In this document: positions 1-24,946 of the stretch, piece after piece
How positions within the stretch are numbered: the first letter of the stretch is position 1
Layout: every line of letters begins with the position of its first letter
Assembly: GCF_000003605.2 (NCBI RefSeq)
Contig: NW_003156257.1
Location: 2,368 to 30,648 of the forward strand
Length of the DNA stretch: 28,281 nt
Direction: 5' to 3'
Origin: Saccoglossus kowalevskii
Lineage: Eukaryota; Hemichordata; Enteropneusta; Harrimaniidae
The notes under the pieces: model-generated
The model's input: the letters and a program-made list of their open reading frames with translations, nothing else
Database searches by the model: none
What the model was told of the DNA's origin: nothing
Translations under genes and position numbers: made by a program

Positions 1-12
1 AACAAGACTTAC

Positions 13-445
13 CATAGATTGTTTGTCTGGTTCTATATGTTTCTCATGGTGTACGATACTCACATGGCGATAATCCTTATCCATGTATTCTGGAATTATA
101 TTTCGAGACAATAATTGTTTTCACAATAGCAATGTGTCAATTGTTATAGTTGCCCATATAACTGACCGCGTTTAAATCACAAACTTGTAGTTATCGCATG
201 TAAAGTTGAATCATATGAAAATAATATTGTGATGTTCATATCAATCGTGGAGCAATGCATACAACTTGAATTCTAGTGACAATGAAGACATCAACTTACC
301 TCACAAATAACTAAAGAAATAATACCTTCAACTTACCTACAATTAATTTTCTTGTTACAGATTTGTTATATTCACCCACAAAGAGAATACTCATTGTGAT
401 TAATACGATATATATTATCTTTTTAGACCATGTTGTGATTGCCAT
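13..445 (-). CDS. Type II membrane protein, exons 1 and 2 (partial, runs off left edge)
   Basis: Minus-strand gene start. Exon 1 is complement(337..445): it begins MAITTWSKKI and encodes 36 residues plus one base. Residues about 10-23 are a hydrophobic signal anchor after a short basic N-terminus, the usual layout of a type II Golgi or ER protein. A GTAAGT donor follows. Exon 2 is complement(13..89), after an acceptor reading TTCCAG; it adds 26 codons rich in His, Glu and Lys and ends at another GTAAGT donor at the window edge. The joined frame stays open for 62 codons. The right-arm copy keeps 31 of 36 exon-1 residues and the same splice donor, which supports real coding. The rest of the protein lies outside, so the enzyme class is unknown. 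A glycosyltransferase or sulfotransferase is plausible from the anchor and from the sulfotransferase remnants in the spacer, but this is inference. Confidence 0.68.
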
Positions 446-1540
446 GTTGCTGTAGCGTCTCTATATAGAATATCAATAGGAGCAAAACAAAATTATGATT
501 AAGTTATACGTAATCTCACAAAGTTGAACTTTTGTACATGCACATTTGTTGTAACTAAACTAAATAAGTTTGGCTTTATGACGTCGTTGGTTATTTATTT
601 GTGACGAATAAGCAGACAATCCCCTGAGATATGATGAGCTAAATTGGCAAAATTTGGGTATTTCCTTGTTAAAATAAATACGCTGATCGAATTTGGTTTA
701 GGAAATAAATCACAGATGGGTGCAATTTGCGGTAAGGTAAAATAAACTTATGTCTGGTACCCGTGTATGTAACATTGGAACTGTATAGCATAGTTGTACC
801 ATAGCGCCAGCTGCTAGGCAAGAATGATGTGATAGTCTACTTATTGAATTTATGCTAATTTGATATCATCTACATAAACACCAATGTAACAATACTATAT
901 GATAAAAAAATATATACAAGGTGTTCATTTAAAAACTTCTCCAGATAGATATTGGGCGATAATTGCTGGTCATTTTTTTTTTCAGAAAATTAAAAGAATT
1001 TTAATGATTTTGTTATACAGTTATAACAGCTGCGAGAATTACATATAGTCTGGTTAATATATTCGGTCTGGTGATTTAATTATAATATATCATTTTGGTC
1101 TATTAAGTTAAAAAAAAAACAAGAATCGAAATTGAAGTCAATTATAATTGTTAAATAATCATAATAATTCTCCCCAATATATTATAAATACTCGTCTAGG
1201 GTATTTCGGTTTGGTTAATGCGTTACTGTATAGTTTATATTGCAATGCACTTTATTGTTATACCTATTGATTTGAGTAGACATTGTATTAACGAACTTGT
1301 GTCTACTTGTAGATGTTGCTTCTTTTTCTAATCATATATCTCTTGTTTTCAAAAGTACCAAATATGGGTTCATTCACTGTCACCATTATTAAAGAATCTC
1401 GTACCTCTTTCCATGAATATACTCTTTGATGTTGTCTCTGTATTGTTATACCGGTATAGTGTCAATGATATATATTGAGGAAGATGTGATAATTTAAAAC
1501 AGGTCTCGAGCTATATTAAGTTTCGTGTCAATATTCACGT
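446..1540. other. Upstream and intergenic sequence of the left-arm membrane gene
   Basis: AT-rich sequence with no convincing open frame on either strand. It aligns, reverse-complemented, to 22245-22440 and 23433-24650 of the right arm. It should hold the promoter and 5' UTR of the minus-strand gene that starts at 445, but I see no clear TATA box or initiator. Confidence 0.6.
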
Positions 1541-1958
1541 CACCAAGAATGACAGACGTTTTACCAATAGCAAGCAGACAACTTGTTAAAACTAAAACAT
1601 AATTTTTAAATTTCAAACTTTGGTCCTATGGGACTAAACACTTACGAGGATGCTATTGTTGGCCTTGTTTTGGCCCTATTTTCAATAGTTGTATACGTGC
1701 ATCTGACAAAAATGTGTTAGGCTAGTAGTTCGCAGTAAATAATCACTGATATCGGTGTCACATTTATGAGATTTCCAGCCATATTTCGTTTCACATAACG
1801 AAATGTACAAGTCAAAAGCAAATGACTGACATCGGTGTCACATTTATGGCATTTCCAGCCATATATCGTTTCACTTAACAAAATGTACAAATCAAAATAT
1901 TCCTGACAATCGAAAAACCAATCTGCAAGAACAGAGGCGGCGGCACGAAATTTTGCAT
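1541..1958. repeat. Left-arm-only insertion with an internal 80-bp tandem duplication
   Basis: The right arm goes straight from the homologue of 1507-1540 to the poly-C tract, so these 418 bases are private to the left arm. Inside, a unit of about 80 bp occurs twice (starting at 1746 and 1826), sharing the core ATCGGTGTCACATTTATG and the following CATTTCCAGCCATAT-like segment. I found no terminal repeats and no clear target duplication. The long minus-strand open frame across it looks fortuitous. Confidence 0.6.
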
Positions 1959-1972
1959 GGGGGGGGGGGGGG
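1959..1972. repeat. Poly-G tract (14 G)
   Basis: Uninterrupted run of 14 G. It is retained as a 15-C run at the equivalent place in the right arm (22221-22235), so it predates the arm duplication. It sits exactly at one edge of the left-arm-only insertion 1541-1958. Confidence 0.85.
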
Positions 1973-2140
1973 CTCTGTTCACCTAACTTGCGCCGAAAGC
2001 GCGACCTTACATAACGTAATAAAATCAACAGGAAACAGCCGTCATCGTCTATCTACAATGCAATATTCTAATTTCAAATATTACTGTTTTATTTTTAACT
2101 TCGAGACGCGAGAGTAAATAAAAATAGGCAAACTGTTTAA

Positions 2141-3036
2141 GGTAGAGATGCAGGTTCGTGGGCACTTGGGAGTGATTTTTTTTTGCTTGTTATTATCCAA
2201 ACAGTCTTGGCTATAGACTGTTAACATTTTGTAGAATTTTGGACATACTCAAAAAACGTTTTTAAAATATAGATAACTGGTGCAAACATTATCTCTTTTG
2301 AATGCTTAGCAAGATTTAGCAAGGCTGTACATAAATAATAAAAAAGGAACATGGTGAAAAAAAGAAATGACGACGGAATCTCCATATTATGCACTATATT
2401 TAACTTCTAACAAAACGATAATACATTTAAATTTGGAACTGTTACAGTCATTTTAATTTTGAGCATTAGCAAACTTCTTCCTGAGTGAATTGTTATGCAA
2501 ATTAACAATTATCTCAGTTTCTTGTTAGTGCACATCCCAGACAAAAATAGCTCCTAGACGCTTTGACCTTTTGTTTTGAAATTTTCACAAATGATTGACA
2601 ATGTGTTTATGTTCAAAACACCGTCGGGGCATTGTTTTTGGTTGAACAGTGTACAACAGTCGTACAGACAACTAGCCTGTTAATTTATGCATAAACTTGA
2701 AGTAGTGAAATTTGAGCTGCTGCTCTGCAAAATTGACAACTGGTAGACAGTTTTCAAGACGGCACTTTTTTCATAGTTAACAGATGTACCCATAAACCAA
2801 TTTTGACAGGAAACAGAAGCATGGCGTAGAAGCCAATTTTTTGTAAATCACTTTTGACCAAAAAAGCACATTTGTGTGCTTATTTCAAACTACACTGTTC
2901 ATAAAAAAATACTAACAAAATTTTAAAATTCATACAATAAGCTTTCCGAAAATATACAGTTTTGTTGGCAAGGAAGGTCATCTTGGTTTCCTAATTAACT
3001 AATTAAAATACCTGTCAGGTAAGCTGCATCTCTACC
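2141..3036 (+). mobile_element. Non-autonomous DNA transposon with TTAA target duplication (Kolobok or piggyBac-like)
   Basis: Perfect 13-bp terminal inverted repeats: GGTAGAGATGCAG at the left end and its complement CTGCATCTCTACC at the right end. They are flanked by TTAA at 2137-2140 and 3037-3040. The right arm has the empty site with one TTAA (22113-22116). The 896-bp interior has no transposase-sized frame. TTAA duplication is shared by the Kolobok and piggyBac superfamilies and I cannot choose between them. It inserted after the arms were duplicated. Confidence 0.88.
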
Positions 3037-3040
3037 TTAA

Positions 3041-3590
3041 ACGGTCTTTCTAAATACAAATCATAATGAAAAATGACGAGTCATTCGAAATAGATGTTAA
3101 TGTAAGTAAAACAAATCATTTACGTGTGCCGATATGCCGCGCCCGTGGCCGTATTATAACGATGTTTCAGCAGTTCTGTATCTCGAGCACAGGAATGTGT
3201 TTTTGTGAAAAAAACGCACATTTTAAATTACTCGAAAATTAATAGTTATATATCAATGCACTCACCTTGTCTGGCGTTCAATATTACTTGCTAACGGTGC
3301 TGTCAATAATGACGACCGGATTCCGTGACATCTGTTTGCTGGTTTAAATTTATTGCATGTGATACACCGATAATTTGAGGTTTTAAATATTACGCCGTGG
3401 TAATTTCAGTCCTGATTTATTCAACAGCTGATGTCATATATAAATTGTTAACACATATATTACGATTCGAATGTAAAAAACAATTGCTTTTAAAATGATT
3501 CAATTTCCCATGGTAATTTAAAAGTATGCTGTATGAATATTCAGGCGTTCTTCTAATAAATTATATTCCCATCATTGCAAAATTGTATTC
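3041..3590. other. Non-coding arm sequence
   Basis: Collinear with the complement of 21620-22110. No open frame, RNA gene or element terminus recognised. Confidence 0.6.
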
Positions 3591-3593
3591 TAA

Positions 3594-3840
3594 AGGTATG
3601 AATGTAGGTTCGTTGGCACTTGTTTGTTTTTTGCTTTTTCTAACATGGTGAAAAAATGGTGAAATAAAAATAATGACGGAGTCCCGATATTATGCACTTT
3701 ATATAACTTTTTACAAAACGATAATAAGTTTAAATTTGGGATTTTACAGTTATTTTACAGCACAATTCTTCTGAATAAATTGTAATCCAAATTAGCCATT
3801 ATCTCCACTTGTGTTTTTCAGTTTACCAGGGAAGTTCAAA
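3594..3840 (+). mobile_element. Older relic of the same TTAA element family, left-arm copy
   Basis: It shares with 2141-2520, in the same orientation, an end resembling GTAGGTTCGTTGGCACTTG, the AACATGGTGAAAAAA segment, the block around ATTATGCACT and a run around ACAAAACGATAATA. The terminal repeat is decayed, the far end is not recognisable and the internal spacing is shorter. A matching relic lies in the right arm (21340-21602), so this insertion is older than the duplication. Confidence 0.7.
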
Positions 3841-3913
3841 TGTAAATAGCTCTCACAATTATTGTTTCACGTGACACATTATTTTCGTCAGATATTTAAT
3901 AATAAATGGGCGT

Positions 3914-4055
3914 CCTTACGTGTAGATAGTTTGTTTTTCATAATACAAAGTTGTCGAGCAGGATGTTGCCTATTTTAAATCCCTGCTCAGACTACTATAC
4001 CAGACACGCTACGCCTATTGTAGGTTGTAGGTGTCAATTAGGGATTACGCCCGTA
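3914..4055. repeat. Left-arm-only block of about 140 bp
   Basis: The right arm joins the homologues of ATGGGCGTCC and AGTTTATTGACACTC directly, so this piece is private to the left arm, or was lost from the right. No terminal repeats or target duplication could be established, so the boundaries are approximate. Confidence 0.45.
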
Positions 4056-4236
4056 GTTTATTGACACTCGTTTGTCGTCAGAGTCTAAGGCTAACCCGAA
4101 GATTTCCGAACGCTCTCGCATTAACACGCTTCGTGTGTTTTTTGTCTGTTTTGATCTTTCGATTGCCTTCGTTTTTGGGGCAAGTTACAGCATTTTTAAT
4201 ATTCCCTGCTTTCTTCAGCGATACTCATCAATTCAA

Positions 4237-4280
4237 AATAGAATAGAATAGAATAGAATAGAATAGAATAGAATAGAATA
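4237..4280 (-). repeat. (GAATA)n pentanucleotide tail of the LINE
   Basis: About nine GAATA units on the plus strand, read as TATTC units at the 3' end of the antisense LINE. Microsatellite rather than poly-A tails are typical of several LINE clades. Confidence 0.88.
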
Positions 4281-4435
4281 ATGCTTTATTACATCCTTAA
4301 TGAAATCTGACATTTCAGTTTTGGTAATTGCTGTATTAAAGCTTTTTAAAATAAACTACACATACAATACAATAATTGATTTCAAATAAACAACAAACTA
4401 AATCACACTGAAAATATAGCACAACAATACATTAA

Positions 4436-4935
4436 TTAATTAATTATCACCTTTTCTTTTCTTATTTTGTAGGCTTTCTGTATGTAATTTAATAACCCGA
4501 GAAGACATTGTTTGTCAGTTGTGTTTAAAATGTGTATAAATTGATCTTTGTTGTAATTTTTGAAATTTGGATTGCAGAATAGACTATATAATTCTAGTCT
4601 ATTTTCTGTATAGAGATCACACTCAGTGATGAAGTGGATTTCATCCTTAATCATGTTACATTTGTCACATTTCCTGTCCTGAATTTTTGTTTTTGGTTTT
4701 GTGTGTCTACCCACTTCTATGTATAGTTGATGGCAGCCAATTCTAAATTTGCTGATTGTTTGAACCGCTTGCCTATCAGTTAACTGTTGTAAATAATATT
4801 CCTGTCTTTTTTGAATAAACTGTAAGTCCTCAGTTTAGATTCTGTTCTTTGCATGTCTATGTTCCATTTGTTAATGCAGTACTTTGCTGCTGTCGCACCT
4901 GGAATTTGACAGTCAGAAATGTATTTCTGTTTTTT
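4436..4935 (-). pseudogene. LINE ORF2 C-terminal region (connection region and Cys/His knuckle)
   Basis: Reading leftward on the minus strand, the first part gives a segment with KLRTYSLFKKD, typical of the region after the RT domain. After a stop and a frame change comes KFRIGCHQLYIEVGRHTKP, then a C-x2-C-x8-H-x4-C motif (RKCDKCNMIKDEIHFITEC). This is the conserved C-terminal finger of many LINE ORF2 proteins: a short helix ending IE.GR, then a cysteine/histidine knuckle before the ...Y..NR..LY tail. Only the last part, complement(4436..4714), is an open frame. The disruptions show that the copy is dead. The clade is not determined. Confidence 0.8.
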
Positions 4936-4944
4936 CATTATTTA

Positions 4945-6420
4945 TTTGAGACTAATTGGGTTAATTACAGAGAATACGCAGTGTCTGCATATTTGTATGA
5001 TTCCTGTATGAGTGTTTTCCCCATGTAATGCATTATCACGCTTTCCTGTATACGCTGCGCAGCAACAATGATTGACAACACCACAAAGGATGATGGGAGA
5101 AACCAGAGGTGCAAGAAACGAAAGCGCAGGAGCATGATACCAACTCTTCACTCTGCCGTGTTTCACTGAAATAACAGACTGTGCGTTATAATCTTAGCAC
5201 ATACTGGCGAACGATAGTACTGAGATCTGCCAGGACTCGTGGTTCGAGTTGAAATTGATTGCAACTCTCAGAATACCAAAAGTTCAAGTTACTGACGACG
5301 ACTAAAGAAACCGCCATATTGGGAGCACGAGATCGTACAAACAAATACGCGTTCAAGCCAGTGAGCGTTCTCTGCGCAGAAACGACCCAGTGATCACGAA
5401 GAAAACCGTTTCTTTCAACGAGCAAATTCGCATCGTAGATGCCATCCTACCACAACACTGAAGTAGCAACCTTTATCGACAGGTACTGTTCCCTTTATAT
5501 AGCGTGACAAGTTTCACTGAACTCCACCGATAAATATAAATTAATCGCGTGAACTCAGCGTTGAAGCCACACTTCGCATTACAACCCCGTGTGATTTGGA
5601 GAGTGTTTGTAGATTATAATATGAGTTCTGGATAGATCTGTGCCATTTATTTCGTTCGGTGATTCACAAAACAGGCTAAATTGAGTTATTTCAGACGAGA
5701 TATTATAATCGAGTGAATTTGTATATGTGAGGCTACGTATTCTGTTTTAATTAGAGTACTTGCTAGGCCATATTTTGAAGTCACATTTATTTAACAGCCA
5801 CAGTGAAAGGCTATTTGTGCTATGGTTAACCATCGCTGTTAATGCTAATTTTCGAGTAATTGTGAATGCTTTTCTGACGTTGTTATAGTATTATCGTTTA
5901 ATCAGTATGTCAATATTTGAACGTGGAACTACCACTCATACGATTCTGAAGACTGTAATTAAGCAGATATTACATTCTTTATTGTAAGCGATATCGCGTT
6001 ATAGCAGTAACTGTGTTCGTGTTCTATAAATGCTAGAGCACATTCTGGTGAGTTACCTTTACCAGCATATTGGTCGCCTGACAGAGCAGTCCTTAGTGTT
6101 GGTGGATAGCGCCATCATCGGTCAGTTCTCATTTGACTGGTCTTTCGTTTTTTTGATAATTACATGGAAGTGCTTTTTCAAAGACTTACATTTGTATTTC
6201 TTATAGTTGTTGAGCTTTTCCAATACCCATTGTGATAGTGCATTGTGGGTAGCGTTGTACTGTTTGCCGTTAACGGTCTGTTGATTAAATGTTGTTCCTC
6301 TGAGATTTGGAGAAGACTGAAACACAAGTTTGACAGGTGTAAGTGTGAGTTTATTTCTATAACAATAATTAGCATTTTATTTCGTGGTGCTATTACTCTC
6401 AGAGCCAAACAAGTTATTAA
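4945..6420. other. Unexplained 1.5-kb block inside the LINE
   Basis: LINE coding similarity stops at about 6600-6560 and resumes near 4935. In related ORF2 proteins these parts are normally separated by far less sequence. The block is less AT-rich than its surroundings in places (5040-5450) and has only short open frames without recognisable motifs. I could not find terminal repeats or a target duplication. It is probably a nested insertion of unknown type; the boundaries are approximate. Confidence 0.45.
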
Positions 6421-6599
6421 TGATCTGTGAAAATATATAGGTTCCCGAGTACCGTATAACAGATATCCCAGTGCAGTGGTGATTGATACCATTCAAAGTT
6501 TTTACCCTTGCTACACCAAGTTTGGGGTGTGGCACTGCCATTTTGTTGAAGTTTTGTTTTGTAATATCCATATGGATTTTTGTTCATTCACAATTTTGT

Positions 6600-7455
6600 T
6601 GAGTCTTGTTAGCCAGTAATCATTTTCTTTGTTTGTTTCCATTTCTTCATAGCATTGAAAGCTATGTTGTCTTTCTTCAATGTAATTAAATGTTTGTACA
6701 TAGTTATTGCCTTATAGTATAGTAAGTGTAACAATGGTAATCTACCAGTATCCATTCTTACTGTAATGTTGCTTGACCTGTTATTCACATTTAGAATGTG
6801 CCTTCAGAATCTGAGGTGGACTTTTTCAGTTTCTGTCTTGTCCCAGTTTTTGTTCGTACATACTCACCATATCCCCCCCCATATGTTAATATTGGTATTT
6901 GTGTAGTTTCAAACAATTTTGTTTTAATAGTAATATTGTTTCTATTGTTATTATAGATAGGTGATTGTGCCCTTTCTGCTCTCCTTGCTTTTTTTGCTAG
7001 TGTTGACATTGTTAAGTCCATAGATCCATTACTATTAAAATTAACACCCATATAGGGGAAGTTTGTTGTTTTCTCAATTATATCATTTCCATACCTTATA
7101 TTTAGCTTCTCTGTACTGTAACCATTTCTATTAAATATAATTGATTTTGTTTTCTTTATGTTTACTTGTAGTCCCCATTTGTTTGCATACCTACCTTGTG
7201 ACATAAGGATGATATCATATGCATGTAACAGACATGGAAATGGTGTGTTATATAATTGTGGTGGGAGACTGTCTTCTTTATCCAACTCGTCAATTAAGTC
7301 AATAATGTAGATATTAAATAGTGTAGGACTCAGTGCACAGCCTTGTTTTACACCGTTTTCCAGCTTGAATGTCGAGGTTACTTTATCTTCAAGTTTGACT
7401 GCACATTTCTTGTTCAGATACATATGTTTAATGACATTGTAGACATTGCCATTGA
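6600..7455 (-). pseudogene. LINE reverse transcriptase domain, catalytic motif lost
   Basis: The main open frame is complement(6791..7423). It contains the RT motif GVKQGCALSPTLFNIYI, then a degraded active-site box reading LLHAYDIILMS where the family has (Y/F)ADD, then GLQVNIKKTKSIIF, then LTYGGG. After a frameshift near 6830 the alternative frame continues with HILNVNNRSSNITV and a GRLPLL segment, typical of the region after the thumb. The first catalytic Asp of the ADD box is replaced by Tyr, and the fingers domain is missing because of 5' truncation. The protein would be inactive. Confidence 0.85.
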
Positions 7456-8465
7456 TATTATATGAATAATAATAGTAGTATTTTTATTATTGTGATTTTT
7501 TCTCCGAATTTGTAGAACTTTTTACAGTTTGAGGGAAACGGACGACAAATCGATCTCGAAATTACAACTTTGCGTAAAGAAATCAGCGAGCACGTTAAAA
7601 TACATTTTAAGCTGCAATTTATAGTAGATTGAAGCTTTATTCCTGGTTTTTAGTGTGTGTTTTATTTTTAAACCCCATTTACAAGAAATTGGCGATGCAA
7701 AGGTCAAGATTGGAAGAACCCGTTCTACTACCAGCTATTCAAATTCACAGCATAATTTAGTTTCTTTTTTTGACATCAACGTTTATATATATTTATATAT
7801 ATATCTTCGAAGAAGAAATGTTGTATAGAGGGCGTGTACTCGCTCATTCTACGTCCCAAACCTGGAACTCGACAGTCATCAAGTCTGAGTACTGAGTATT
7901 TTCTGATCTTTTGTACACGTCTATCCCGTGATTTTTTAATATATGTAATGAATTGCAACTAAATTACTACTATGACGATTGTAATTGCGTATAGTAATAC
8001 TCATGCAGATAGGCAATCACGTTCTAGGGAATGAAATCAAGTGATAAATGAAATTTAAATTTTTCTATTGTCATATTTATTTCTAAATTCTTCGTGCTAT
8101 ATGTCAAACACTAATTTGAATGATTGAAGTATAATCAAGCAGCTAAGAAGCTTACTCTGTAAATATTGTAATCTCTACCATTACCCTAAAACGATTGCAG
8201 CACTATCGGGTATACTTTTTTTTAATAGATGAACAATGTAACTAACGGAATGTAACTACATATAACCCTCCGTTCAAAAATTGCAGGGATACTACACAAA
8301 ACAAAAGTGCTTGACAAAGTATCTCAAATATCGCAATAAAAAGATTCTTTACTTAGGTATAACACACTGTAGTCTACTCAGGCAACCAAGTGAACCAACA
8401 GGCGAAAGAAAACCCATGAAAATCATGATGCATAATCATTTTAATCGCTTGTTTCATGAACCCAC
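7456..8465. other. Non-coding arm sequence
   Basis: Aligns to the complement of 19797-21060. The right arm has about 110 extra bases near 20430-20540. Short open frames on both strands are not conserved between the arms and look fortuitous. Confidence 0.6.
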
Positions 8466-8661
8466 CCGTGGTCAATTTTAAAAACATTCACATGTCATTA
8501 GCTTCCAGTGATTAAATGGTGCTTTAGCGGGTTACTGATTAAACTAGCTATTTTGTTGTAAAAGGGAAGTTTGACCAGACGGAAATCTTAGAATAGCTGC
8601 ATAATTATAATACAATTTGTGCACTGCCTCATAGTTCTGATTTTAATCTGCGCTTGTGTTG
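8466..8661. mobile_element. 196-bp insertion with 9-bp target duplication
   Basis: TGAACCCAC occurs at 8457-8465 and again at 8662-8670. The right arm has it once (GTGGGTTCA at 19788-19796) and continues with the homologue of the sequence after 8671. The insert has no clear inverted repeats, A-tail or tRNA-like promoter boxes, so the type is unknown. A 9-bp duplication would fit a Mutator-like MITE or a short retro-insert. Confidence 0.78.
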
Positions 8662-8670
8662 TGAACCCAC

Positions 8671-10265
8671 GTGTGCTTCAAGAGCGCCATATCTTATTAA
8701 TGTGTTTTATTGAGTCGATAATGAATGACAATGATACACCTCACTTAGTATACAATATAAGAAATGCCTAAAGAAACAAGATAAAATGGAACTTTTTTCT
8801 ATATCCTAGTAGCATGGTGGTAAATTACATATAATTTTCATCAAACATTGTCAGTAAACATTTTAGAGTAGTATAACTACCTGCATGAGAAATCTAGAAT
8901 ATAGATAGCCTTGGTTCCACGGCGTAGATGATATTTACATTCTACCTTAGGATTTCTACGCAAACATCACCATCGATCCTGTTGCAGTGGAGGCGCGACA
9001 AATTGGTACGCACTGTTTTTGACTAAAAAATTATCAACTAAACGCAACCTAAAAATGACAAATACACGATTTGTCTATAAATACGCCTTCTACATCCAAC
9101 ACACATTTTATTTCATTACGTCACATATAATGTCAACGAAGTGTCATGATATTACTTAACATGCTTGTATACCTTGCCTCATTTGCATCAATAGGTAAAA
9201 ACATTACTTTAATCATCTCAACCGCATGACGCATACGTTGAAAATACGTTGGTGGCGCTGTATGATTTCGAAATTGTTAGTGGCTCGCAAATGTTTAGTA
9301 CGAAAGAAAGCGTGTACAGACATCTAGTAACCACAATATACATAGTGGGGTATAGGCCAAAACATTTGTGCCTGTTGCGTTCCATAATGAATGTTATCTT
9401 TTAATACTTGCACCGTTATATATTCTTCATAAAATATGTCTACGTAATACTAGTAACCTCATTAAAGTTATTAGCATATTGTGTATGTAGTATGCATGTT
9501 TCAGATCGTTATTATGTGTTCCACAACGCATGACAATGTTGGCGTATAGTTTGTAAAAAATGATGTCGATCTGGAGAGGTAATGCCACTTAATCGTTGCA
9601 AACTGTGGTGAGAGAAACTTTTGAGCTTCGTGTTTACTGGCTTTACCATCCATTCTTTAATAACTCCCTCCACAACCATCTACATTCTCTCTCCCTCAAA
9701 ACTAAGACGCAACCCTATTTTTCCTTGAAAACAAACAATATGCAATAAATAACCCATGTCTACTTGAGTGAACTTCACCAATTTATAGTACTGGTTCCTT
9801 AACTCTATAACATTTTCAACGTAATGCATTTTACATCAACACTTTTTATATGATATTAATTCCCAGTTCCCATCCAATATACATGTATGCATCCCGATAC
9901 AACGAATCCTACGTCAATTTATAATATTGAGGGCGACATACTCTATGAAATATTAAATGGTTCATTAGGGTTGATGTGCATGTGCCGCCCATGAGCCTAT
10001 TGATTTGTTCGAGCTACCTTTGGCAAATTTGTTTGTGGGATTCCTAGTAGTGCATTGAGCCAGGTGTAATTTGGGGACAAACATTTTGCGAAATATACAA
10101 AAAATGTTAACTGCAAATGGAACTTCCAATTGAGTTTTGGTACGTTTGTTCGTCGTTATATATTGCATACATTGTTGTATCTAATATACCTAGGTGACAC
10201 TGGGAACACTCAATAAATGTAATAATACGAACTATGTATATGTAAACTGTATGAGTGAACGTGTT
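8671..10265. other. Non-coding inner part of the left arm
   Basis: Matches the complement of 18545-19780 up to about 9935, is unmatched from 9940 to 10150, then matches 18080-18205. No supported gene. The best-conserved part (around 9060-9210, with CACGATTTGTCTATAAATAC) has no open frame conserved in both arms. Confidence 0.6.
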
Positions 10266-10386
10266 GTGATCTCTCCTGATGAAACCTGCCAAATTTTAGT
10301 TATTCGACTACGCAAGCAAGTACGAGACGTCTTACTAACCTTAAGTGAGTACAAGTGAGTTTCCTAAGTGTTCATCTTGTTTATAA

Positions 10387-11040
10387 ATGATTATGGCTGG
10401 ACAAGAAAAACGCCAGAGGACAAATTTTACTGACTCGAAGACGACGGACAAAGCCACTAACAATGAGGATGACGTCAGAGCAAAGTTGAAACAGTTGTGT
10501 GACGGTCAGAATGCGTTTCAACGAATAATCGACAGTAAGATAGATCGCCTGTGAACAGATTTAACTAAAACCGTAGCAAGTAAAATGAAAGAGCTTTCTG
10601 ATTCATTTGCACTTCAAATTGGTCGATTAGACGCAAAGTATCAGACATGAAAAGCAAAGTGCAACAGGTGCTCATGGCACGTTAGATGTCGACCCTTTGG
10701 ATAACCCCGACATTACATTAATTGTGTCTTGTCTTAAAATGTTGATGAAAATCCTGAAGGTGTACTTAAAAAAGGTATGCTTAAAAAAACTTGGCGATGA
10801 CGTTGCGGATAATATAACAATTATTAAAGCAGTCTGAGAACAATCTCGACAACAAGGTGTCCCGGGGTTAGTAAAATTTGCATGCAAGGATTTAGAACAA
10901 AAGAAGCAAATACTTCGTGCAAAACATCGTTTGAAAGACAGTGCCGAATTTGAACAGGTGTTTCTTCGGTCTAGTAAAACACATACGAATAGGTTACTGG
11001 AGCCTAGTGCTTGTGGGGCCCAACGAATTGCCAAATTGTA
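10387..11040 (+). pseudogene. LINE ORF1 remnant (coiled coil plus RNA-binding-like region)
   Basis: Starts at ATG 10387 (MIMAGQEKRQ). The first 55 codons are polar and charged with a likely coiled coil, then stop at TGA 10552. Further pieces in other frames continue with SKMKELSDSFALQIGRLDAK and, near 10860-10980, LVKFACKDLEQKKQILRAKH followed by a segment ending in RSSKTHTNR. The second piece resembles the RNA-binding-like domain of LINE ORF1 proteins, in which an R/K-rich segment follows a coiled coil. At least three stops or frameshifts make it non-functional. It lies directly upstream of the endonuclease remnant, in the normal ORF1-ORF2 order. Confidence 0.68.
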
Positions 11041-11173
11041 GCGACTTTCGAATCACCGGTAGTGGTAGAATTGTTCGTAAGACCTACAACCTGCGTGAAA
11101 ATCGGGGAGAAGAAAACCAATGTCGCGTAAGACTATGCGCGGTAATACAATATAATTCAACTCGGCTCGGTGG

Positions 11174-11970
11174 ACTGAAAATTGCACGCATTAACGTTTG
11201 TGGCTGGACACAATGGATCTGTAATCTCCGCGAAAGAATACTAGTATATGTAAACGCCGATATCATTAGTATTAACGAATCCCATTTACGTCGCGATGAC
11301 GTATTGATAATTACAATTGGATTCGACACAATAGATCTATTTCATATTGAGGCAAACCGGACATTTGGCGGGGTTGATTTATTTAATGTTAAGTGGTCAC
11401 TATGCAATGAGTATTTGATAGCAATAATTGACAGGGGACACGGGGACATACTCGGAGTTCGGTTTGAGAATAAATGAACTGGGTTCACTATCCTATTTTT
11501 TCTTGTTATCTGCCACCTGAGAATTTGCCTTGGGGAAGAGATGCAAATGCATTCTTTAGTCACCTACTTATTCAGCTTTATATGACATATGATGTCGATA
11601 CAATTATTATATATGGTAATCTCAATGCTGGATTGGGAAATTTGAATGATAATATTGATGTAGTGGATAACATTAGGAATAGACACGTGAATGATACTAA
11701 AATTAATCAACATGGTCACAGTTTTTGCGAGTTCCTGCAGGAAACTAAGCTATGTATTTTGAATGGTCGTTTTGATAGACACCAAAATGATTTATTTCTA
11801 GTAGGGAGAGATCTGTAGTTGATTACGTGTGCGTTCCCCAAGACCATTTAAGTTATTGTAATACTTGTAATATTATAACTATGTCGTCTCTGGTTGAGAA
11901 ATACAATTTATATGATGCACTCACAATAGAAGTATACTTCCTGACCACTCACTTTTAATTTTTGATTTTC
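11174..11970 (+). pseudogene. LINE ORF2 APE-type endonuclease remnant
   Basis: Three frames join to give the exonuclease-endonuclease-phosphatase fold. First comes KIARINVCGW (the conserved N of motif I) and ADIISINESHL (the catalytic Glu). After a frameshift near 11474 comes IIIYGNLNAGLGN, where the family has GDFNA, so the catalytic Asp is changed to Asn. NGRF follows, and after a stop at 11816-11818 VVDYVCVP and finally PDHSLLIFDF, equivalent to the SDH motif that carries the catalytic His. The order and spacing match LINE ORF2. The frameshifts and the Asp-to-Asn change indicate a dead copy. Confidence 0.85.
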
Positions 11971-13906: not shown

Positions 13907-14045
13907 TGTGATCATCGATTATTTTTTTGTAGGATATACTTTTGTTGTTGCTTTATGTTCAATGCAGGTGAATTTGAATTTGGATAAGCTTTAGAATTCA
14001 GAATTAACTTTCCACAGAATTAACGTTTATGCTTGTGAGCAAATA

Positions 14046-15397
14046 ATGGCTAGGATGTTGCAGCTTGTTATTACTGTCATGGTAACCACTTCCTGCTTAG
14101 CTATATTCATCACATCATATTCAAATTTAGTTCAATTGAACCTCAAAACATTTCAACAAAACACGACGATAAATATATACTCGTGTAAGTCTCTGTACCC
14201 AAAGGGCATCTTAAAAAGATTAGACAAGTTATCCGAGAGGCTGAACCAACTCCGTGGCACGTTGAGCATGACAAGCGACATGGTGTCGGCAGGATTTGCA
14301 CATAATGGATCAATGTGTAGACTACATAATATATTAAATGACGTATTATCGCAAAATCGGTCTCTTAAAATTGGTATAATAGGAGGATCTATTTCAGCAG
14401 GTGGCGGTCTCGGGGAGAAGAGTTTATTTATTCCAGTATACTGGGAGATTTGCTGTGTCCTGTGTCGAATGGCCGTATTGAAATACATAACGCAGCAATA
14501 GGTGCAGCAGATAGCAGTTACTATAGATATTGTTAAAAGCACACCTCACCGCATCAGATATGGATATTATTGTATGGGAATTAGCTATCAATGATTACCT
14601 TGTGAACATTGGGCCTGATTTCCAAGAAGATTTGACAAGGCAAATCTTAGAATCACCACAGAAACCGCAGTTATTTTATGTCAATTTTGTCAATCGAATA
14701 TTATTTACCGCACCACGTCCATGCAGGGTCCTTGAAAAGCTGGAAGCGACCCACTGTCTGTTCATTATGAAATACCGTCTGAAAGTTTGCCCACCGCATC
14801 GTGCACATTGCTGCGACAAGGCCGAAATGACGTTATTAGGCAATGACAACAATCATCCAGGGCGCAAGCCACACAAAATAGCTGCGATATTTCTTGCTCA
14901 TTTAATATAAAGTGGTTTTTAAAGTATTTTATCATCAGAACAAATATATTGTATTGAAACACTTCCTCTTCCACTCTTCAATGGATCACACCCACTATTC
15001 ACACAATGCCGGTCGTCACTAAAACAAAAGAAGCCAATTACATCCTTTGACACCACTTCGATATGATAAATGTTGGGCGGTAATGGAACCAATAATTGAA
15101 GGTTAGAATGGCAGAACAGATAGCAAAACATTCTGGGGGTGTAAGAGTGAAAGAAAAACCATAGTATTTCATATAAACATTAATACAATTATAAATGTAC
15201 CAGTATTCAATGTGCATGTCGCGATGCTAGGCTGCATAGAATGAGGCCGTGCTAGGATTTTCGTTGATGCTATGAAATACACCGAAATCAATGCTTACTG
15301 GGAATGGAACGTTCCAAGAATTTTCCATATTACAGCTAATGTTGGGCCAGGGAGGCATAATGTGACAATAACCAGTGTTTCAAATCAACTTATATGA
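14046..15397 (+). pseudogene. Membrane-anchored SGNH-hydrolase-like protein, pseudogene
   Basis: Begins MARMLQLVIT with a signal anchor at residues 5-24, then a stem. Residues 107-121 read SLKIGIIGGSISAGG, the SGNH block I with nucleophile Ser115. A frameshift near 14415-14430 leads to NAAIGAADSSYYRYC (block II-like), and another near 14533 to DMDIIVWELAINDY (block III with the Asn). The same frame later gives DNNHPGRKPHKIAAI, the D-x-x-H of block V. Two stops (14908, 14917) precede a continuing cysteine-containing region. In another frame, 15069-15397 encodes a C-terminal beta-rich domain with ARIFVDAMKYTEINAYWEW and GPGRHNVTI. All catalytic residues are recognisable, but two frameshifts and several stops make it a pseudogene. 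Intact relatives are expected to be Golgi or secreted esterases acting on glycans; this role is inferred. The plus-strand sulfotransferase remnant follows 220 bp on. Confidence 0.82.
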
Positions 15398-15618
15398 CTG
15401 ATTGCTGTTATGGCTGGATAGACATGATTTTGGAAAGAGGATATGTTTAATATACAATATCGTGAGTTTTTTGTCAAACAAAATCTGGATTAAAATCATA
15501 TACAACGAATCTAATAATGAATTAGTGCTCCGATTAGGAAAATCGTCTCGTGAATGGATAAGGTCCCTAACACCTATTGTTGACTTGATGTTTGGTGAAA
15601 AACAATGATTTATATTGA

Positions 15619-16290
15619 GTATTCAATTGTAGAGACTCGTCAGACTCGGAGAAAGAGATACAAGCTAAGAACAATAATGTGACATGTATAAAACCTCACA
15701 CGGTTTACTTTGTCGTATCGGAAAAATAAAAGTTCATGTTCAAAGTGTCATCCACAACTTGGACATACTTTTTGCCGATTATGAAGTGCATGGGGATTAC
15801 AAATATGATGGAATTGTTGAACCTCACTAAAACAGATATGAAGAAATATACCAAAATAATGTTCTGCCGAGAACCACTGGAAAGACTGGTGTCATTTTAC
15901 TATAATAACATACATTACGCGGTAAACCAATCGATCCAAAATAAGCAATTTGTGGACCTCATCAAAAACATTGGATTACCCAATCACAGCGTGATAGCAT
16001 ATAACCCTTAGGGCCATGAAGTCTATTATATAACATTTATAGAATTTGTAAAGATGGTCATTCACCATCATTCATATGGGGAATATGTGGCCCTTGGTGG
16101 GCAGTTATATAATATCAAAGATCATATGTATGTTTATTTAAGTAAGATTTTCTCAGTCAATTTGAACACTTTAACCAATCCGGAAGTCATCCGGAACAAG
16201 TTGTGTGGAAACAAGATGTTGGTGATGGTGGTTATTAAATTGTGTTGTACAACAGCTGATCCTAGTTCAATGGTTGTTTCAACACTATAA
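15619..16290 (+). pseudogene. Carbohydrate sulfotransferase (HNK-1ST/CHST8-14-like) pseudogene
   Basis: A single frame, 15619-16290, is interrupted by TAA at 15727 and TAG at 16009. Before the first stop it reads CIKPHTVYFVVSEK. After it comes FKVSSTTWTYFLP, matching the 5'-phosphosulfate loop K-x-x-x-(S/T)-x-W of PAPS-dependent sulfotransferases. FCREPLERLVSFYYN follows, matching the 3'-phosphate loop (R.P..RL.S.Y). After the second stop, TFIEFVKMVIHH matches the family's tF.eFv segment. The tail beyond about 16090 no longer fits. The stop seems to replace an aromatic residue just before the PSB loop. Intact members are type II Golgi enzymes that sulfate glycans; the anchor and stem are not found here. 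Together with the SGNH remnant it suggests a former glycan-modification gene cluster. Confidence 0.82.
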
Positions 16291-16674: not shown

Positions 16675-16960
16675 ATAATGATCACTAGAATTCAAATTAT
16701 ATGTTGTGCTCCATAGTTGGAATTAGAATCTTAATAATATTTGCATGTAAATTACTCTAGATCTGTATTGGCGATAACGACACGTTGCAATTTAGACCGG
16801 ATCAGTTATAGAGACAATATACTGATTATATTAATAATTGACACATAAAAGTTGTGATATTGCAAAAACAATTATTGTTTCGTAATATAATTCAAGAATT
16901 CACGAAAAGAGTATCGCCATGTCAGCCAATGGTGACGATGTTTACTTACTATGGCAATAA
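16675..16960 (+). pseudogene. Third, decayed copy of membrane-gene intron 1 end and exon 2
   Basis: Plus-strand sequence homologous to the complement of 60-290 of the left arm, that is, intron 1 and the start of exon 2. Shared landmarks are CACTAGAATTCAA, a TGCTCCA block, ATTGACACAT, AAACAATTATTGT and GTATCGCCATGT. The acceptor ends TTCAAG at 16896 and the exon-like part starts AATTCACG. The reading continues about 39 codons before a stop but soon departs from the left-arm protein. No exon 1 lies upstream. It overlaps the intron portion kept in the right arm. Confidence 0.72.
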
Positions 16961-18079: not shown

Positions 18080-18205
18080 AGCCTTGGTATATAATATGTT
18101 CACACCCATACAGTTTTCATATACATATTTCGTATTATTAGATTGTTTGAGTCTTCCCAGCGTCACCTAGCTATAACAGGTTCAACAATGTATGCAATAT
18201 ATGTT

Positions 18206-21200
18206 TTTAACATCTGACGCAATTTCACGGTATATATCGCAGAATATGTCGACAAAACACAACACAAAGTAAAGTCATGTACACTAAAACACATGTACAC
18301 CCTAAAATAAAGGGAATCGGTCATTTTTAAAAGATTCCAATTTCGTTAACAAAAACGAACTCCACACACACTTCATGGTGACATCAGAATATTAAACTAC
18401 TTTTCACCGTACATCACTACATCAAACACATTCGCCACAGTTACATTTATCGTTATTTTGATTTAAAGCCCGAACCGATTTACATTAAAACAAATCAAAA
18501 ATTCCTGACATTGTTCGTGCTCATATATACATGATAATATGATACGTAATATTATAAATTGACGTAGGATTCATTGTATCCGGATGCATGTGTGTATATT
18601 GGATGGGAACTGGGAATAAATGTCATATAAAATGTGATGATGTAAAATGCATTACATTGAAAATGTTATAAACGAATATCCATAGTTAAGGAACCAGCAC
18701 TATAAATTTGTGAAGTTTACTTAAGTAGACATGGAATATTTCTTGCCTATTGTTTTGTTTTCAAGGAAAATAGGGTTGTGTCTTGGTGTTGAGGGAGAGA
18801 GAATGTAGATGATTGCGGGGGGAGTTATTAAAGAATGGATGGTGATATCAGAAAACACGAAGTTCAAACGGTTCTCTCGCCACAGTTTGCAGTGGGTGAT
18901 TGGCATTGCACTCTCCAGATCGACAACACTTTTTACCAACTATACGACAACATTGTCATGCCTTGTGGAATAGCGATCTGAAGCATGCATGTTGCATACA
19001 CAACATGCTAATAATTTTAATGCCGTCATTATGTAGATATATCTTATGAACTATCAAAAGAAAACATTTATTATGGAACGCAAAAGGCACATATTTTTAA
19101 CCTAGACCTCCACCATATATATTGTGGCTATTAGATTACTGTACATGCTTTCTACCATACTGAGAGCCACTAAACATATTTAAATTATACAGCGCCACCA
19201 GCGGCTTTTCTCGGCTCTATGCGTCAAGGTGATGAAAGTATTGTTTTTACCTATTGATGAAAATGAGGCATTGGTATACAAGCATGTTAAGTAATATCAT
19301 GACACTTCGTTTACATTATATGTGACGTAATGAAATAAAATGTTCGTTGGATGTAGAAGGCGTATTTATAGACAAATCGTGTTTTTGTCATTTTTAGGTT
19401 GCGTTTAGTTGATAATTTTTTAGTCAAAACAGTGCGTATCAATTTGCCGCGCCTCTACTGCAACAGGATTGATGGTGATGTATGCGTGGAAATCCTAAAG
19501 CAGAATTTAAATATCATCCACGCCGTGGAATCAGGGCTATCTGTATTCTAGAATGTATTATGCAGATATATAGCTACACTAAACTAAAATATTTACTGAA
19601 AATGTTCGATGCAAATTATATGTAATTTAACACCATGCTACTAGGATATAGAAAAAAAGTTCCATTTTCTCTCCTGTTCCTTTAAGCATTTTTTATATTG
19701 TATACTAAATGATGTGTATCATTATCATTTTATATTATCGATGTAATAAAATAAATTAACAAGCTATAGCACTTTTAAAGTACATAGGTGGGTTCATGAA
19801 ACAAGCGATAAAAAATGATTACTCGAGTATGCATCATGGATTTCTTGTTTTTTCGTCTCTTTGTTCACTTGATTGCCAGATAGAGAATACAGTGTGTCAT
19901 CCCTGAGAAGAATAACATCTTATTATTGACATAGTTGAGATACTTAAATGCCTCAATTTGAAAGCACTTTAATTTGTGTAGTTTCCCTGCATTTTTTTGA
20001 ACGGAAGGTTAGTTACATTCCGTTAGTTACATTGTTCACCCTTTAAATAAGGTATACTCGTCGTTTTCACTGCAACAGCTGCAATCGTTTTAATAATAGT
20101 AAAAATGAAAGTGGGGTTATGGTAGAGATTACAATATTTACAGAGTAAGCTTCTTAGCTGCTTGACTAGACTTCAATCAATCAAATTAACAATTCAAAAG
20201 AAAATTTTAAATTGAATTTAATCCCTACAACGTGATTGCCTATCCGTATGCATATTACTATACGCAATTACAATTTATAAGCATTTTTGCACGGATATTG
20301 GAGCAAAATGTTGAAAAAATACACATCCACAAAGTAATATATCATCATAGTAATAATGTAGTTGCAATTCATTACATATATGAAAAAATCACGCGTCAGA
20401 TTTGCACGAAAGATCAGCAAATATAATGAATAAATTAAGCATGTTTATGTAACGCAGGTATCTGTAACAGTGTTGAATTTAAAACGCACTGTAACTGAGC
20501 CACACTAATGATTTCAAAAATAAATGAAACATGAGTTTTATTTTAAAGTACTCAAACTAGATGACTGTCTAACTTCCAGTGGCAGAGTTTCTGATTTGGG
20601 ACGTAGGATGAGCGAACATATGTTTGTACTTCGTTGTTATTGAACGCTTTTTGCCTATAAGACATAAGATTTTAAAATTTTACACAATATTAGAAACTAC
20701 GAAGATTAAGTAAATATATAAATGTTGATGTCATAAGTTTCATTCATGAAAGCTGCATAACAATACAGTAATCAAAAAAGGAAACTTAATTATGCTGTGA
20801 ATTTCAACAGCTGGTAGTAGAATATTGAGCTTCGTATCGCCAATTTCTTGTAAAAAGGGTTTACAAAATCAAACACACACTAAAAACCAGGAATAACTTC
20901 AATCTACTATAAATTGCAGCTAAAAATGTATTTCAACGTGTTCGCTGATTTCTCTACGCAAAGTTGTATTTTCGAGGACGATTCTTCGTCCGTTTCCCTC
21001 AAATTGTAAAACGTTCTACAAATTCGGAGAAACAATTAACATAATAAAATACTACTATTATTATTCATATAATATTATGTATTCATAAGTATCCAGACGA
21101 AAGCAGGGGATATTAAAAATGCTGTAACTTGCCCCAAAAACTAAGGCAATCGAAAGGTCAACACACACACAAAAAACACACGAAGCGTGTTAATGCAGGA

Positions 21201-21339
21201 GCGTTCGGAAATCTTCGTGTTAACCTTAGACTCTGACGTCAAAGGAGTGTCAATAAACTGGATGCCCATTTGTTAATAAACAACTTACGAACATAATATG
21301 AAAGTTTCACGTGAAATAAACAACAAATGTGAGAGCTAT
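18206..21339. other. Non-coding body of the right arm
   Basis: 18206-18545 has no left-arm partner; from 18545 on it matches the left arm in reverse. No open frame is conserved between the arms. It includes the empty sites of the left-arm 196-bp insertion (19788-19796) and of the LINE (near 21075-21095). Confidence 0.6.
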
Positions 21340-21602
21340 TTAAATTTGAACTTCCCTGGTAAACTGAAAAACACAAGTGGAGATAATGGATAATTTGCAT
21401 AACAATTCATTCAGAAAAATTGTGCTGATGCTCAAAAAAAACAAATATCTGTAAAATCCCAAATTTAAACTTATTATCGTTTTGTAAAAAACTTATATAT
21501 ACAGTGCATAATATGGGGACTCCGTCATCATTTTTATTTCATCATTTTTCACCATGTTAGAAAAAGCAAAAAACAAACACTCACAAGTGTAGAATAGAAT
21601 AC
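21340..21602 (-). mobile_element. Older relic of the TTAA element family, right-arm copy
   Basis: Reverse-complement partner of 3594-3840, with TTTTTCACCATGTTAG, GTGCATAATATGG and TTATCGTTTTGT. Being present in both arms, it dates from before the duplication. Only the related 2141-3036 copy is left-arm specific. Confidence 0.68.
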
Positions 21603-22438
21603 CATTTTGCAATAATGGGAATATAGTTTATTGGAAGAACCCCTGAACATTTAAAATTACCATGGGAAATTGAATCATTTTAAAAGCAATATTTTACATT
21701 CGAATCGTAATATATATGTTAACAATTTATATATGACATCAGCTGGCCTAATATCTAAAACCTCAAATTATTGGTGTATCACATGCAATAAATTTGAACC
21801 AGCAAACAGATGTCACGCAATCCGGTAGGCATTATTGACAGCACCGTTAACAAGTAATATTGGACGCTAGACATACAAGGTGAGTAAATTGATTATATAA
21901 CTATTAATTTTGGAGTAATTTAAACTGTGCATTTTTGTTCACAATCCTTGAAAACATATTCCTGTGCTCAGATACAGAACTGCTGAAACATTGTTATAAT
22001 ATGGCCACAGGCGTGGCATATGGATACACGTAAATGATTTATTGTACTTACCTTAGCATCTGTTTCGAATGAATCGTCATTTTTCATTGTGACTTGAATT
22101 TAGAAAGACCGTTTAAACATTTGTATTTACTCTCACGTCTCGAAGAGGGTTTAATATATCTTTTTCCTATTTGATTACGTTATGTAAGGTCGCGCTTTCG
22201 CCGCAAGGTTGGTGAGCAGACCCCCCCCCCCCCCCGTGAATGACACGAAAATTATTATAGCTCTTCCTCAATATATATATCATTGACAGTACTACCGGTA
22301 TAACGAAACAGAGACAACATCAAAGAGTATATTTTTGAAAAAAGGTACGAGTCACTCTAATAATGGTGACACAGACCCCATATTTATTACTATTGGAAAC
22401 AAGCGATATGTTTTTAGACAAAAAAAGCAACATCTACA
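21603..22438. other. Non-coding right-arm sequence with poly-C tract
   Basis: Matches the complement of the left arm at 3590-3041, then 2136-1959, then 1540-1310, skipping the left-only insertions. It holds a 15-C run at 22221-22235, partner of the left poly-G. The open frame starting at 22335 runs into the adjacent insertion and is not conserved. Confidence 0.6.
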
Positions 22439-22635
22439 ACTCTCAAGTTTGACTGTCATCAGTTCTCGGGCGTTTTGTGGAAATTGCGAACTATTTCACG
22501 CGAGGGACTTTAGTCCCGAGAGACTGTCCCCGTCTGCAGGTTTCTAGTTGATATGAATAATTCATAGTTGATACTGACGTCACGAAATAAATTATATTAA
22601 CATATTGTATGTCAATTTATTCTAAATGACCCGCA

Positions 22636-22866
22636 ATGAATACAGTCATTCCAAATGAAATAGCATTGAAAACTATTAAATCGTCCAGAACCAAGAAAAC
22701 AACGTGCATTGTTTGCGGCAGTCAAAAAGAAAATATAGAAAACTGAAGGAGAAATTGAACAGAGACGATTGATCTACATCTTGTCAGTTTGTATGCGTGC
22801 AGAAAATGTAGACTAAGAGCGTCGACTCTGCATAAAAACATGAATGAGTTTAGGAAGAAATTTTAA
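22636..22866 (+). pseudogene. Broken frame with two Cys pairs, inside the right-arm insertion
   Basis: From ATG 22636 the frame reads basic residues and then TKKTTCIVCGSQKENIEN before a stop. A continuation includes LHLVSLYACRKCRLRASTLH and a basic tail. The pattern C-x2-C ... C-x2-C plus basic residues resembles an N-terminal zinc-binding DNA-recognition module. It could be the remnant of a transposase or a captured gene. I do not recognise the family. Confidence 0.4.
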
Positions 22867-23287
22867 CAAACTGAGCGAGAGTCATTGGAAAGGCTCAGAC
22901 ATTTTCATCTAAGAGAATGGCAACTGAAAGTGGGGGATCCCTGGTTTCGAAACGACTTCTTTTTGACAAGACGAACGCCAATACGGCACGCTGACGAACA
23001 CATCTCTCCCCTCTGTGTAGTGTGCGATAGTGTCTCGCTGGTTTTCCTTGCAAGACATTACAATGGTAGTATAAACGTACCAGCACTTTTATAATGCATT
23101 CGTCAAGATCGCGTATAGTACAGTCAAAACAAACTTTGCCTACGCCACTGTCGTGGGCGAACCCAGTAGCCCCTAGCCGACCCCTGAGTCTTTTTACGAT
23201 TGGCCACGATAAAATGATAGATATCTGCGCGACTATCATTTGCATATGAAAGTACCCGGATCTGGTAAGAAATCTTACCAGTGAATT

Positions 23288-23780
23288 GCACCACAGGACA
23301 GTCGGTCGTGCCTAATGGCACTCCATACTTCCTGTCCCGGTGTTCGCAATTTATTCACGCCTATTACGTTTATACACAATATTTATTAATGATAACAGAT
23401 TAATATTAGGTACGACCGACTGTCGACAGTCTACTCTCAAGTAGACACAAGTCTACTCAAATCACTGGATATACAAATTAAAGTGCATTACAATATAAAC
23501 TATACAGTAACGCATTAACCAACCTGAAATATCTAGACGAGTATTTATAAGATATTGGGGAGAATTATTATGAATATTCAACAATTTTAATTGGCTTCAA
23601 TTTTGACCCTTGTAAAATACAGCAGAAAGTTTCACAATAAATTACAAAATCGTTACAATTCTTTTAGTTTTCAGAAAAAAAATCACCAGCAAATATCGCC
23701 CAATTTCTATCTGAAGAAGTTTTTAAATGAACAACTTGTATCTATTTTATGATCGTATAGTAGATGTTGTAAACAATTGT
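23288..23780. repeat. 493-bp tandem duplication, copy 1
   Basis: Starts GCACCACAGGACAGTCGGTC and ends AAACAATTGT just before the next copy begins at 23781. It includes the last 145 bases of the right-arm insertion plus adjacent arm sequence, so the duplication came after that insertion. Confidence 0.93.
23297..23424. mobile_element. 128-bp MITE-like unit, copy 1
   Basis: Bounded by GACAGTCGGTCGTGCC and GGTACGACCGACTGTC, 16-bp inverted repeats with one mismatch. It has no coding capacity. It either is a MITE nested at the end of the larger insertion or forms that insertion's terminal inverted structure. Confidence 0.68.
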
Positions 23781-24229
23781 GCACCACAGGACAATCGGTC
23801 GTGCCTAACGGCACTCCATACTTCCTGTCCCGGTGTTCGCAATTTATTCACGCCTATTACGTTTATACACAATATTTATTAATAATAACAGATTAATATT
23901 GGGTACGACCGACTGTCGACAGTCTACTCTCAAGTAGACACAAGTCTACTCAAATCACTGCATATACGAATTAAAGTGCATTACAATATAAACTATACAG
24001 TAACGCATTAACCAAGCTGAAATATCTAGGCGAGTATTTATAAGATATTGGGGAGAATTATTAAGAATATTCAACAATTATAATTGGCTTCAATTTTGAC
24101 CCTTGTTCAATACAGCAGAAAGTTACACAATAAATTACAAAATCGTTAAAATTCTTTTAGTTTTCAGAAAAAAATCAATGAACAACTTGTATCTATTTTA
24201 TGATCGTATAGTATATGTTGTAAACAATT
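23781..24229. repeat. 493-bp tandem duplication, copy 2 (internally deleted)
   Basis: Near-identical to copy 1 (about 95% by eye) but lacks some 42-44 bases present in copy 1 near 23683-23726. The left arm has the deleted stretch (near 925-970), so copy 2 lost it. Confidence 0.92.
23790..23917. mobile_element. 128-bp MITE-like unit, copy 2
   Basis: Same unit as 23297-23424, carried along by the tandem duplication; the left repeat reads GACAATCGGTCGTGCC. Confidence 0.68.
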
Positions 24230-24653
24230 ATACACTCATTGGTGTTTATGTAGATGATATCATGTTGAAGTAGTGAGCACAAATTTAATAGGTAGACTAT
24301 CACATCATTTCTGCCTAGCAGCTGGCGCTATGGTACAACTATGCTTAATACAGTTTCAAGGTTACATACAGGGGCTGCCAGACTTACCGCAAATTTCACC
24401 CATCTGTGAATTATTTGCTAAACCAAAATCGATCAGCGTATTTATTTCAACAAGGACATTCACACATTTTGACAATTTAGCTCATCATCATATCTCAGGG
24501 AGCTGTTTGCTTATTCGTCACAAATAACTAACCGACGACCTCTAAAAGCCAAACATAATGTATTTACAAAAGTTCAACTTTGTGGGATTACGGAAAACAT
24601 AATCATATTTCTTTTCGCATTGGCATTCTATTAGGGAGAGACGCTCCCGCAAC
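24230..24653. other. Right-arm upstream region of the membrane-gene exon
   Basis: Matches the complement of left-arm 446-880 and should contain the promoter and 5' UTR of the exon at 24654. The plus-strand open frame at 24273-24527 is not conserved in the left arm. Confidence 0.55.
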
Positions 24654-24762
24654 ATGGCAATCCCAACATGGTCGAAAAAGATAATATTTATTGTATTAAT
24701 CACAATGAGTATTCTCCTTGTGGTTGAATATAACAAATCTGTGACAAGAAAATTGATTATAG
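24654..24762 (+). pseudogene. Type II membrane protein exon 1, truncated right-arm copy
   Basis: Encodes MAIPTWSKKI and a hydrophobic anchor, 36 residues plus one base, followed by a GTAAGT donor at 24763. Against the left-arm exon, 9 of 109 bases and 5 of 36 residues differ, and the donor is kept. Homology to the left arm then continues through intron 1 only to about 24946, so exon 2 and the rest of the gene are missing and the promoter of another gene begins. The copy was probably cut by the breakpoint of the inverted duplication. The exon could still be transcribed, but it cannot give the normal product unless another acceptor is used. Confidence 0.75.
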
Positions 24763-24946
24763 GTAAGTTGAAAGTATTATTTGTTTTAGGTATTTGACGT
24801 TCTATAATTTGATGTCTTCATTGTCACTAGAATAATTCAAATTATATGCTATGCTCCATGGTTGAAATGAGCATCACAATATTATTTGCATATGAATTAA
24901 ACAAGTGTGTGATTTTGACGCGATCATTTAAATGGGCCTAACAATT

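Follow-up and report, generated by a model that had tools for sequence, protein, structure and literature searches.

A palindrome-like locus as the probable inverted junction of two old members of a segmental-duplicate cluster

Introduction

A stretch of 28,281 nucleotides of the Saccoglossus kowalevskii genome, referred to here as the window, carries two long arms in opposite orientation around a spacer, and the question it raises is whether these arms arose together as a palindrome or are two members of a larger family that happen to face each other. The window corresponds to bases 2368-30648 of scaffold C4577 (132,315 bases); the assembly comprises 4830 contigs with 572,110,611 bases in total. 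The window contains no N itself, and N stand directly before its first base and after its last. In what follows, U0 denotes the left, inverted arm, U1 the right-hand unit in the window, U2 and U3 the downstream units in direct orientation on C4577, and X the corresponding unit on scaffold C3533, which is either a separate locus or a diverged second haplotype.

Extent and content of the inverted arms

By self-BLAST, positions 152-10257 match positions 18103-24937 in inverted, collinear order. The comparison yields 17 inverted blocks, 12 of which fall into one collinear chain running from an outer pair (152-929/24177-24937) to an inner pair (10158-10257/18103-18202). Over 4784 columns, 439 of them gap columns, the chained blocks agree at 3861 of 4345 ungapped columns (88.9%, or 80.7% with gaps counted), with BLAST identities of 69-90% for single blocks, and the best block scores 1301 bits, against 31-41 bits for the best score per shuffle in 20 dinucleotide-shuffled windows. 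The large inverted repeat of the original prediction is thus confirmed as a collinear chain beyond chance, recovered by the reverse-complement self-alignment that had been suggested as a check, and the spacer put at 7.8 kb measures 7845 bases (10258-18102). That the arms match is correct; that they do so over ‘almost their full length’ is too strong, as the blocks span roughly 4.6 of 10.1 kb (about 46%) in the left arm and 4.5 of 6.8 kb (about 66%) in the right, the remainder being arm-specific or too diverged and including, most notably, a LINE insertion described below. The longest exact inverted match between the arms is 47 bases. The 7.8-kb spacer, the divergence of the arms and the lack of any longer exact match make cruciform extrusion, named earlier as a possible consequence of the structure, implausible.

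In self- and scaffold comparison, the left arm (1..10257, minus strand) proves to be non-coding sequence from the distal part of a duplicated unit, in inverted orientation; its homology to the right arm begins at 152, and its homology to other units reaches the window's first bases. The right arm (18103..24937, plus strand) is the distal part of U1, a non-coding region matching the left arm and lying in direct orientation. When 65 frames of at least 40 amino acids from the right arm (C4577:20444-27304) were compared with the other copies, matching frames lay on either strand and identity was much the same for both; by eye, the arms therefore show no coding constraint. Adjoining the right arm's outer side, where unit homology ends, an open frame of about 200 codons (25086-25697, plus strand) holds a SAP domain, scored at 30.8 and 30.5 bits against a cut-off of 23.9. 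Short, diverged direct repeats (67-82% alike) also lie outside the arms, 25795-26618 matching 27471-27683 and the repeats matching among themselves. No tRNA gene and no Rfam match at gathering scores was found in the sequence scanned.

Further copies of the duplicated unit

The arm sequences recur beyond the window. A genome search with the best arm block (50 rows; best 40 of 64 candidates scored) found, besides the arms, a copy at C4577:57993-59199 (78%) and one in two pieces at C3533:83447-84579 (83-85%); no near-identical copy is among the matches listed, the remainder of which are shorter, at 67-93% over at most about 500 bases. With the second arm block (best 40 of 766 candidates scored), the whole-block matches among those listed are the two arms and C3533 only, and 37 of the 40 listed rows match just its first 290 or so bases, a dispersed repeat.

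Comparison of the scaffold with itself places U2, in direct orientation, on C4577, where it starts near 39.6 kb and extends to 60 kb or beyond; it is followed by a further direct stretch at 64.4-75.5 kb, the first part of which may be the end of U2 and the rest the start of U3; scaffold comparison places X at about 73-90 kb of C3533. Matching parts of the direct units on C4577 lie about 29-38 kb apart, with identities of 84% between C4577:16174-18790 and 45701-48414 and 78% between C4577:20936-22718 and 57993-59793, while C4577:45701-48776 matches C3533:76615-79742 at 89%. Runs of N interrupt U2 and U3, flank the window and separate the units, so that the order of units beyond the window rests on scaffolding. 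More than two copies of an ordered unit are nevertheless present (U1, U2 and a partial U3 on C4577, and one on C3533), and they carry matching genes in the form of SGNH-like and Sulfotransfer_2-like pieces, as in a tandem segmental-duplicate cluster. Judged from sequence, both arms represent one part of this duplicated unit, and they are two of about five units, some of them partly visible.

Two further observations concern the surroundings. Several minus-strand frames at C4577:106-119 kb resemble, by eye, pancreatic-lipase-type proteins, apparently another tandem family beside the cluster. At C4577:70681-71043 (minus strand), outside the window, a frame looks by eye like a retroelement integrase, and this stretch is common with C4577:41672-42992.

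Relationships among the copies

If the arms had been formed as a palindrome, they might be expected to be each other's closest relatives, and they are not. Ungapped identity is higher between U1 and X than between U0 and U1 in all five segments compared: 0.913 against 0.867 in A, 0.954 against 0.910 in B, 0.909 against 0.873 in C, 0.917 against 0.911 in D (a gap of 0.006, with equality on shared columns) and 0.895 against 0.797 in E. With U0 as the reference instead, U1 is the most similar copy in A (0.867) and C (0.873), and X takes that place in B, D and E. Trees, which covered A, B and C, join U1 and X in three of three cases (supports 100/100, 93/91 and 77/86, respectively). The AU test of sister arms, which covered A and C, rejects a U0+U1 constraint in A (p 2e-7) and does not reject it in C (p 0.066); in segment C, the row labelled U3 (C4577:64430-65242) may belong to U2, because the start of the 64.4-75.5 kb stretch may be the end of that unit.

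Sites shared among four copies point the same way. Segment A has 41 sites grouping U1 with X, spread over columns 25 to 1278, against 6 for U0+U1 and 7 for U0+X; the corresponding counts are 7, 0 and 0 in B, 8, 5 and 4 in C, and 1, 0 and 3 in D, which sum over A-D to 57 for U1+X, 14 for U0+X and 11 for U0+U1. By these comparisons, the right arm has a nearer relative in X than in U0. On the evidence of A and B, then, the two arms did not originate as a palindrome; the evidence from C and D is weak. The arms are inverted segmental duplicates, as had been proposed, whereas the palindrome does not hold up as a unit of evolution: the nearest copy of its right arm is the unit on C3533, and the genes in its spacer belong to the right-hand unit.

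Gene conversion between the arms had also been suggested, on account of a region of high identity. As a general process, it finds little place here, since the four-copy sites favour U1+X over U0+U1 throughout A-D (41:6, 7:0, 8:5 and 1:0), leaving a general homogenisation of the arms unsupported. The high-identity tract itself exists: at 9060-9210, where the arms are more alike than elsewhere, 144 of 151 ungapped positions are identical (95%). Agreement of the two arms over this tract is lower with U2 (121/144 and 121/145) and with X (78/87 and 80/87, X lacking 64 of the 151 positions), and a short conversion tract is therefore possible at this place.

Genes of the duplicated unit and their decay

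Decayed genes between the arms had been recognized from the outset, and they can now be named. Translated comparison reveals an SGNH/GDSL-like pseudogene at 13995..15415 (C4577:16362-17782, plus strand), its frame split into several pieces, and a family match marks a Sulfotransfer_2 pseudogene fragment at 15652..16187 (plus strand). SGNH-like pieces occur at four places, namely U1, U2, U3 and C3533: the frame at C3533:76818-78248 is uninterrupted for 477 codons, counted between stops, that of U2 contains two stops, and that of U3 is partial. A genome search with this frame returned 37 rows, several of which are pieces of one copy. The open C3533 copy scores 18.5 bits (E 0.003) against Lipase_GDSL_2, short of the Pfam cut-off of 32.9 bits, and two window pieces have no match to that family at E 0.1; the frame is for this reason called ‘GDSL-like’ rather than a family member. 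It also matches a PDB entry described as a ‘GDSL-like protein’ (6hfz) at E 7.6e-7.

Sulfotransfer_2-like pieces lie downstream of the SGNH-like frame in the window, in U2 and in C3533, and another is found at C4577:65604-66364. The window piece (C4577:18163-18450) contains one stop and, at 35.4 bits, passes the Pfam PF03567 cut-off of 22 bits, and two relatives reach 47.7 and 90.5 bits. The visible part of U0 contains neither SGNH-like nor Sulfotransfer_2-like pieces. Across the genome, the Sulfotransfer_2 family search gave 71 rows, and further copies lie near the C3533 unit, at C3533:53685-54350 (minus strand), within an open frame of 369 amino acids, and at C3533:70716-71192 (plus strand). 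The same scaffold also encodes a RING/B-box/NHL protein, which together with the LINEs and the Sulfotransfer_2 genes makes up a gene content in keeping with an animal. A literature search on sulfotransferase cluster expansions returned loosely related work only, as far as the available text of those sources goes.

Changes private to each arm

The left arm contains a LINE insertion of about 3.2 kb (about 4251..7454, minus strand), recognized by an RVT_1 open reading frame at 6791-7423 (minus strand, E 2.3e-8), a tail of short tandem repeats at 4237-4280 and sites that appear, by eye, to be empty in the right arm and in the C3533 copy. Self-comparison of the right arm shows an internal tandem duplication at 23287..24235 (plus strand), with two copies of about 0.45-0.5 kb that are 88% alike; as far as the comparison rows show, this sequence is single-copy in U0 and C3533. 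With a private LINE in one arm and its own tandem duplication in the other, the copies have aged separately, just as the original prediction had it, and the broken genes likewise show that they decay independently.

The dispersed repeat of about 290 bases lies at 21260-21550 and partly at 2348-2515 and 3653-3805. It occupies a corresponding place in both arms (21380-21548 and 3653-3805) and therefore probably predates the duplication; 2348-2515 is a second left-arm copy.

A truncated LINE at the probable inverted junction

Between the left arm and the right-hand unit lies a further sequence, at 10258..12941 (plus strand), which belongs to a dispersed repeat with matches on nine further contigs. 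Its classification as a LINE draws on an endonuclease-RT match of 21.5 bits, below the Pfam cut-off of 27.4 and followed by the start of reverse transcriptase, and on a reverse-transcriptase-like frame seen by eye in a relative. The left end of this LINE abuts U0; two other copies, read at the same point, stay alike for another 40 bases or so. At the other end, its 3′ side is cut off inside the RT region: matches elsewhere stop at window positions 12939-12941 in five places, those on the other four contigs stop earlier, and matches to U2 and U3 start at 12956 (two places). Two of the five copies, read onward, are alike for about 40 bases past the cut, and one of them continues in an open frame that looks, by eye, RT-like. 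LINE insertion normally truncates the 5′ end, whereas here the 3′ part is lost, which indicates a break inside the LINE. Where the LINE matches end and the unit matches begin, we infer a rearrangement breakpoint between the LINE and the right-hand unit, at 12942..12955.

Origin of the inverted arrangement

Taken together, the comparisons make it very probable that the ‘palindrome’ is an inverted junction at which U0 and U1, both old members of a segmental-duplicate cluster, meet. A unit in which long non-coding stretches accompany an SGNH/GDSL-like gene and a sulfotransferase gene would have undergone several duplications; a piece of DNA carrying U0 and the adjoining LINE would then have broken inside the LINE and been joined, inverted, upstream of the SGNH-like gene of U1, perhaps in a single inversion event. 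It is conceivable, but in our judgement unlikely, that the LINE caused the rearrangement, with the break occurring during or after its insertion, and that the arm stretch at about 8975-9210 was later exchanged by gene conversion, the old inverted pair still recombining.

The assembly might instead have joined an alternative haplotype of the region in inverted orientation, as its scaffolding across large N runs and the position of the left arm, with which the readable part of the scaffold begins, would allow. Within the window, however, the LINE joins both units in gapless sequence, the arms are set apart by large indels and by differences at about 11% of ungapped positions, the C3533 copy is closer to U1 than U0 is, and the best arm block matches strongly at two further places (at 78-85%), with none near-identical among the matches listed; a misjoin of this kind seems improbable. 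More improbable still is that U0 and U1 arose from one another by inverted duplication and that gene conversion involving U1 and the C3533 unit subsequently blurred their relationship. The collinearity of the arms, the 95% tract and the indecisive AU result in segment C fit such a history, but the 41 U1+X sites are spread through segment A, and with A, B and C all grouping alike the blurring would require several kilobases to have been converted. A reading of the arms as long terminal inverted repeats belonging to a single giant mobile element can be set aside almost entirely: the arms do enclose a region with LINE-like and other genes, and the integrase look-alike lies further along the scaffold, yet other units continue past the right arm's end, whole-block matches of the two arm blocks are confined to the cluster among the matches listed (the rest being shorter dispersed repeats), and none of the eight window ORFs scanned matches a transposase or integrase.

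Comparison with known systems

The junction of U0 and U1 thus appears real but ordinary, an inverted member of an old, decaying segmental-duplicate cluster with a LINE at the breakpoint. Because its arms are two old, separately decaying copies, one of them flipped, it would reflect ordinary genome history rather than a special hairpin, and no function is indicated for the inverted arrangement as such. A striking palindrome in one window can be a glimpse of just a pair of copies from a larger duplicated cluster, and here the nearest relative of the right arm sits outside the window. Within the genome, the locus flags an SGNH-like/sulfotransferase cluster in decay, together with one rearrangement breakpoint associated with a LINE.

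Non-LTR retrotransposons (LINEs) occur at rearrangement breakpoints, and the present case resembles these in having a LINE cut at the junction of an inverted segment, with one LINE copy known at this place. Sex-chromosome palindromes likewise have large inverted arms around a spacer; their arms are described, in the portions of the literature available, as near-identical and subject to gene conversion (PMC9122934, PMC3403216), whereas the arms here are about 11% apart at ungapped positions and one is closer to another copy. Tandem birth-and-death gene clusters are similar in comprising several diverged, gene-bearing units, mostly in one orientation and with some pseudogenes. Among tandem genes in vertebrates, 72-94% are in parallel orientation, so that inverted members would be usual, on the figures in the accessible part of that study (PMC2547482); the locus differs from such clusters in that what is visible of its inverted copy is confined to non-coding sequence of the unit.
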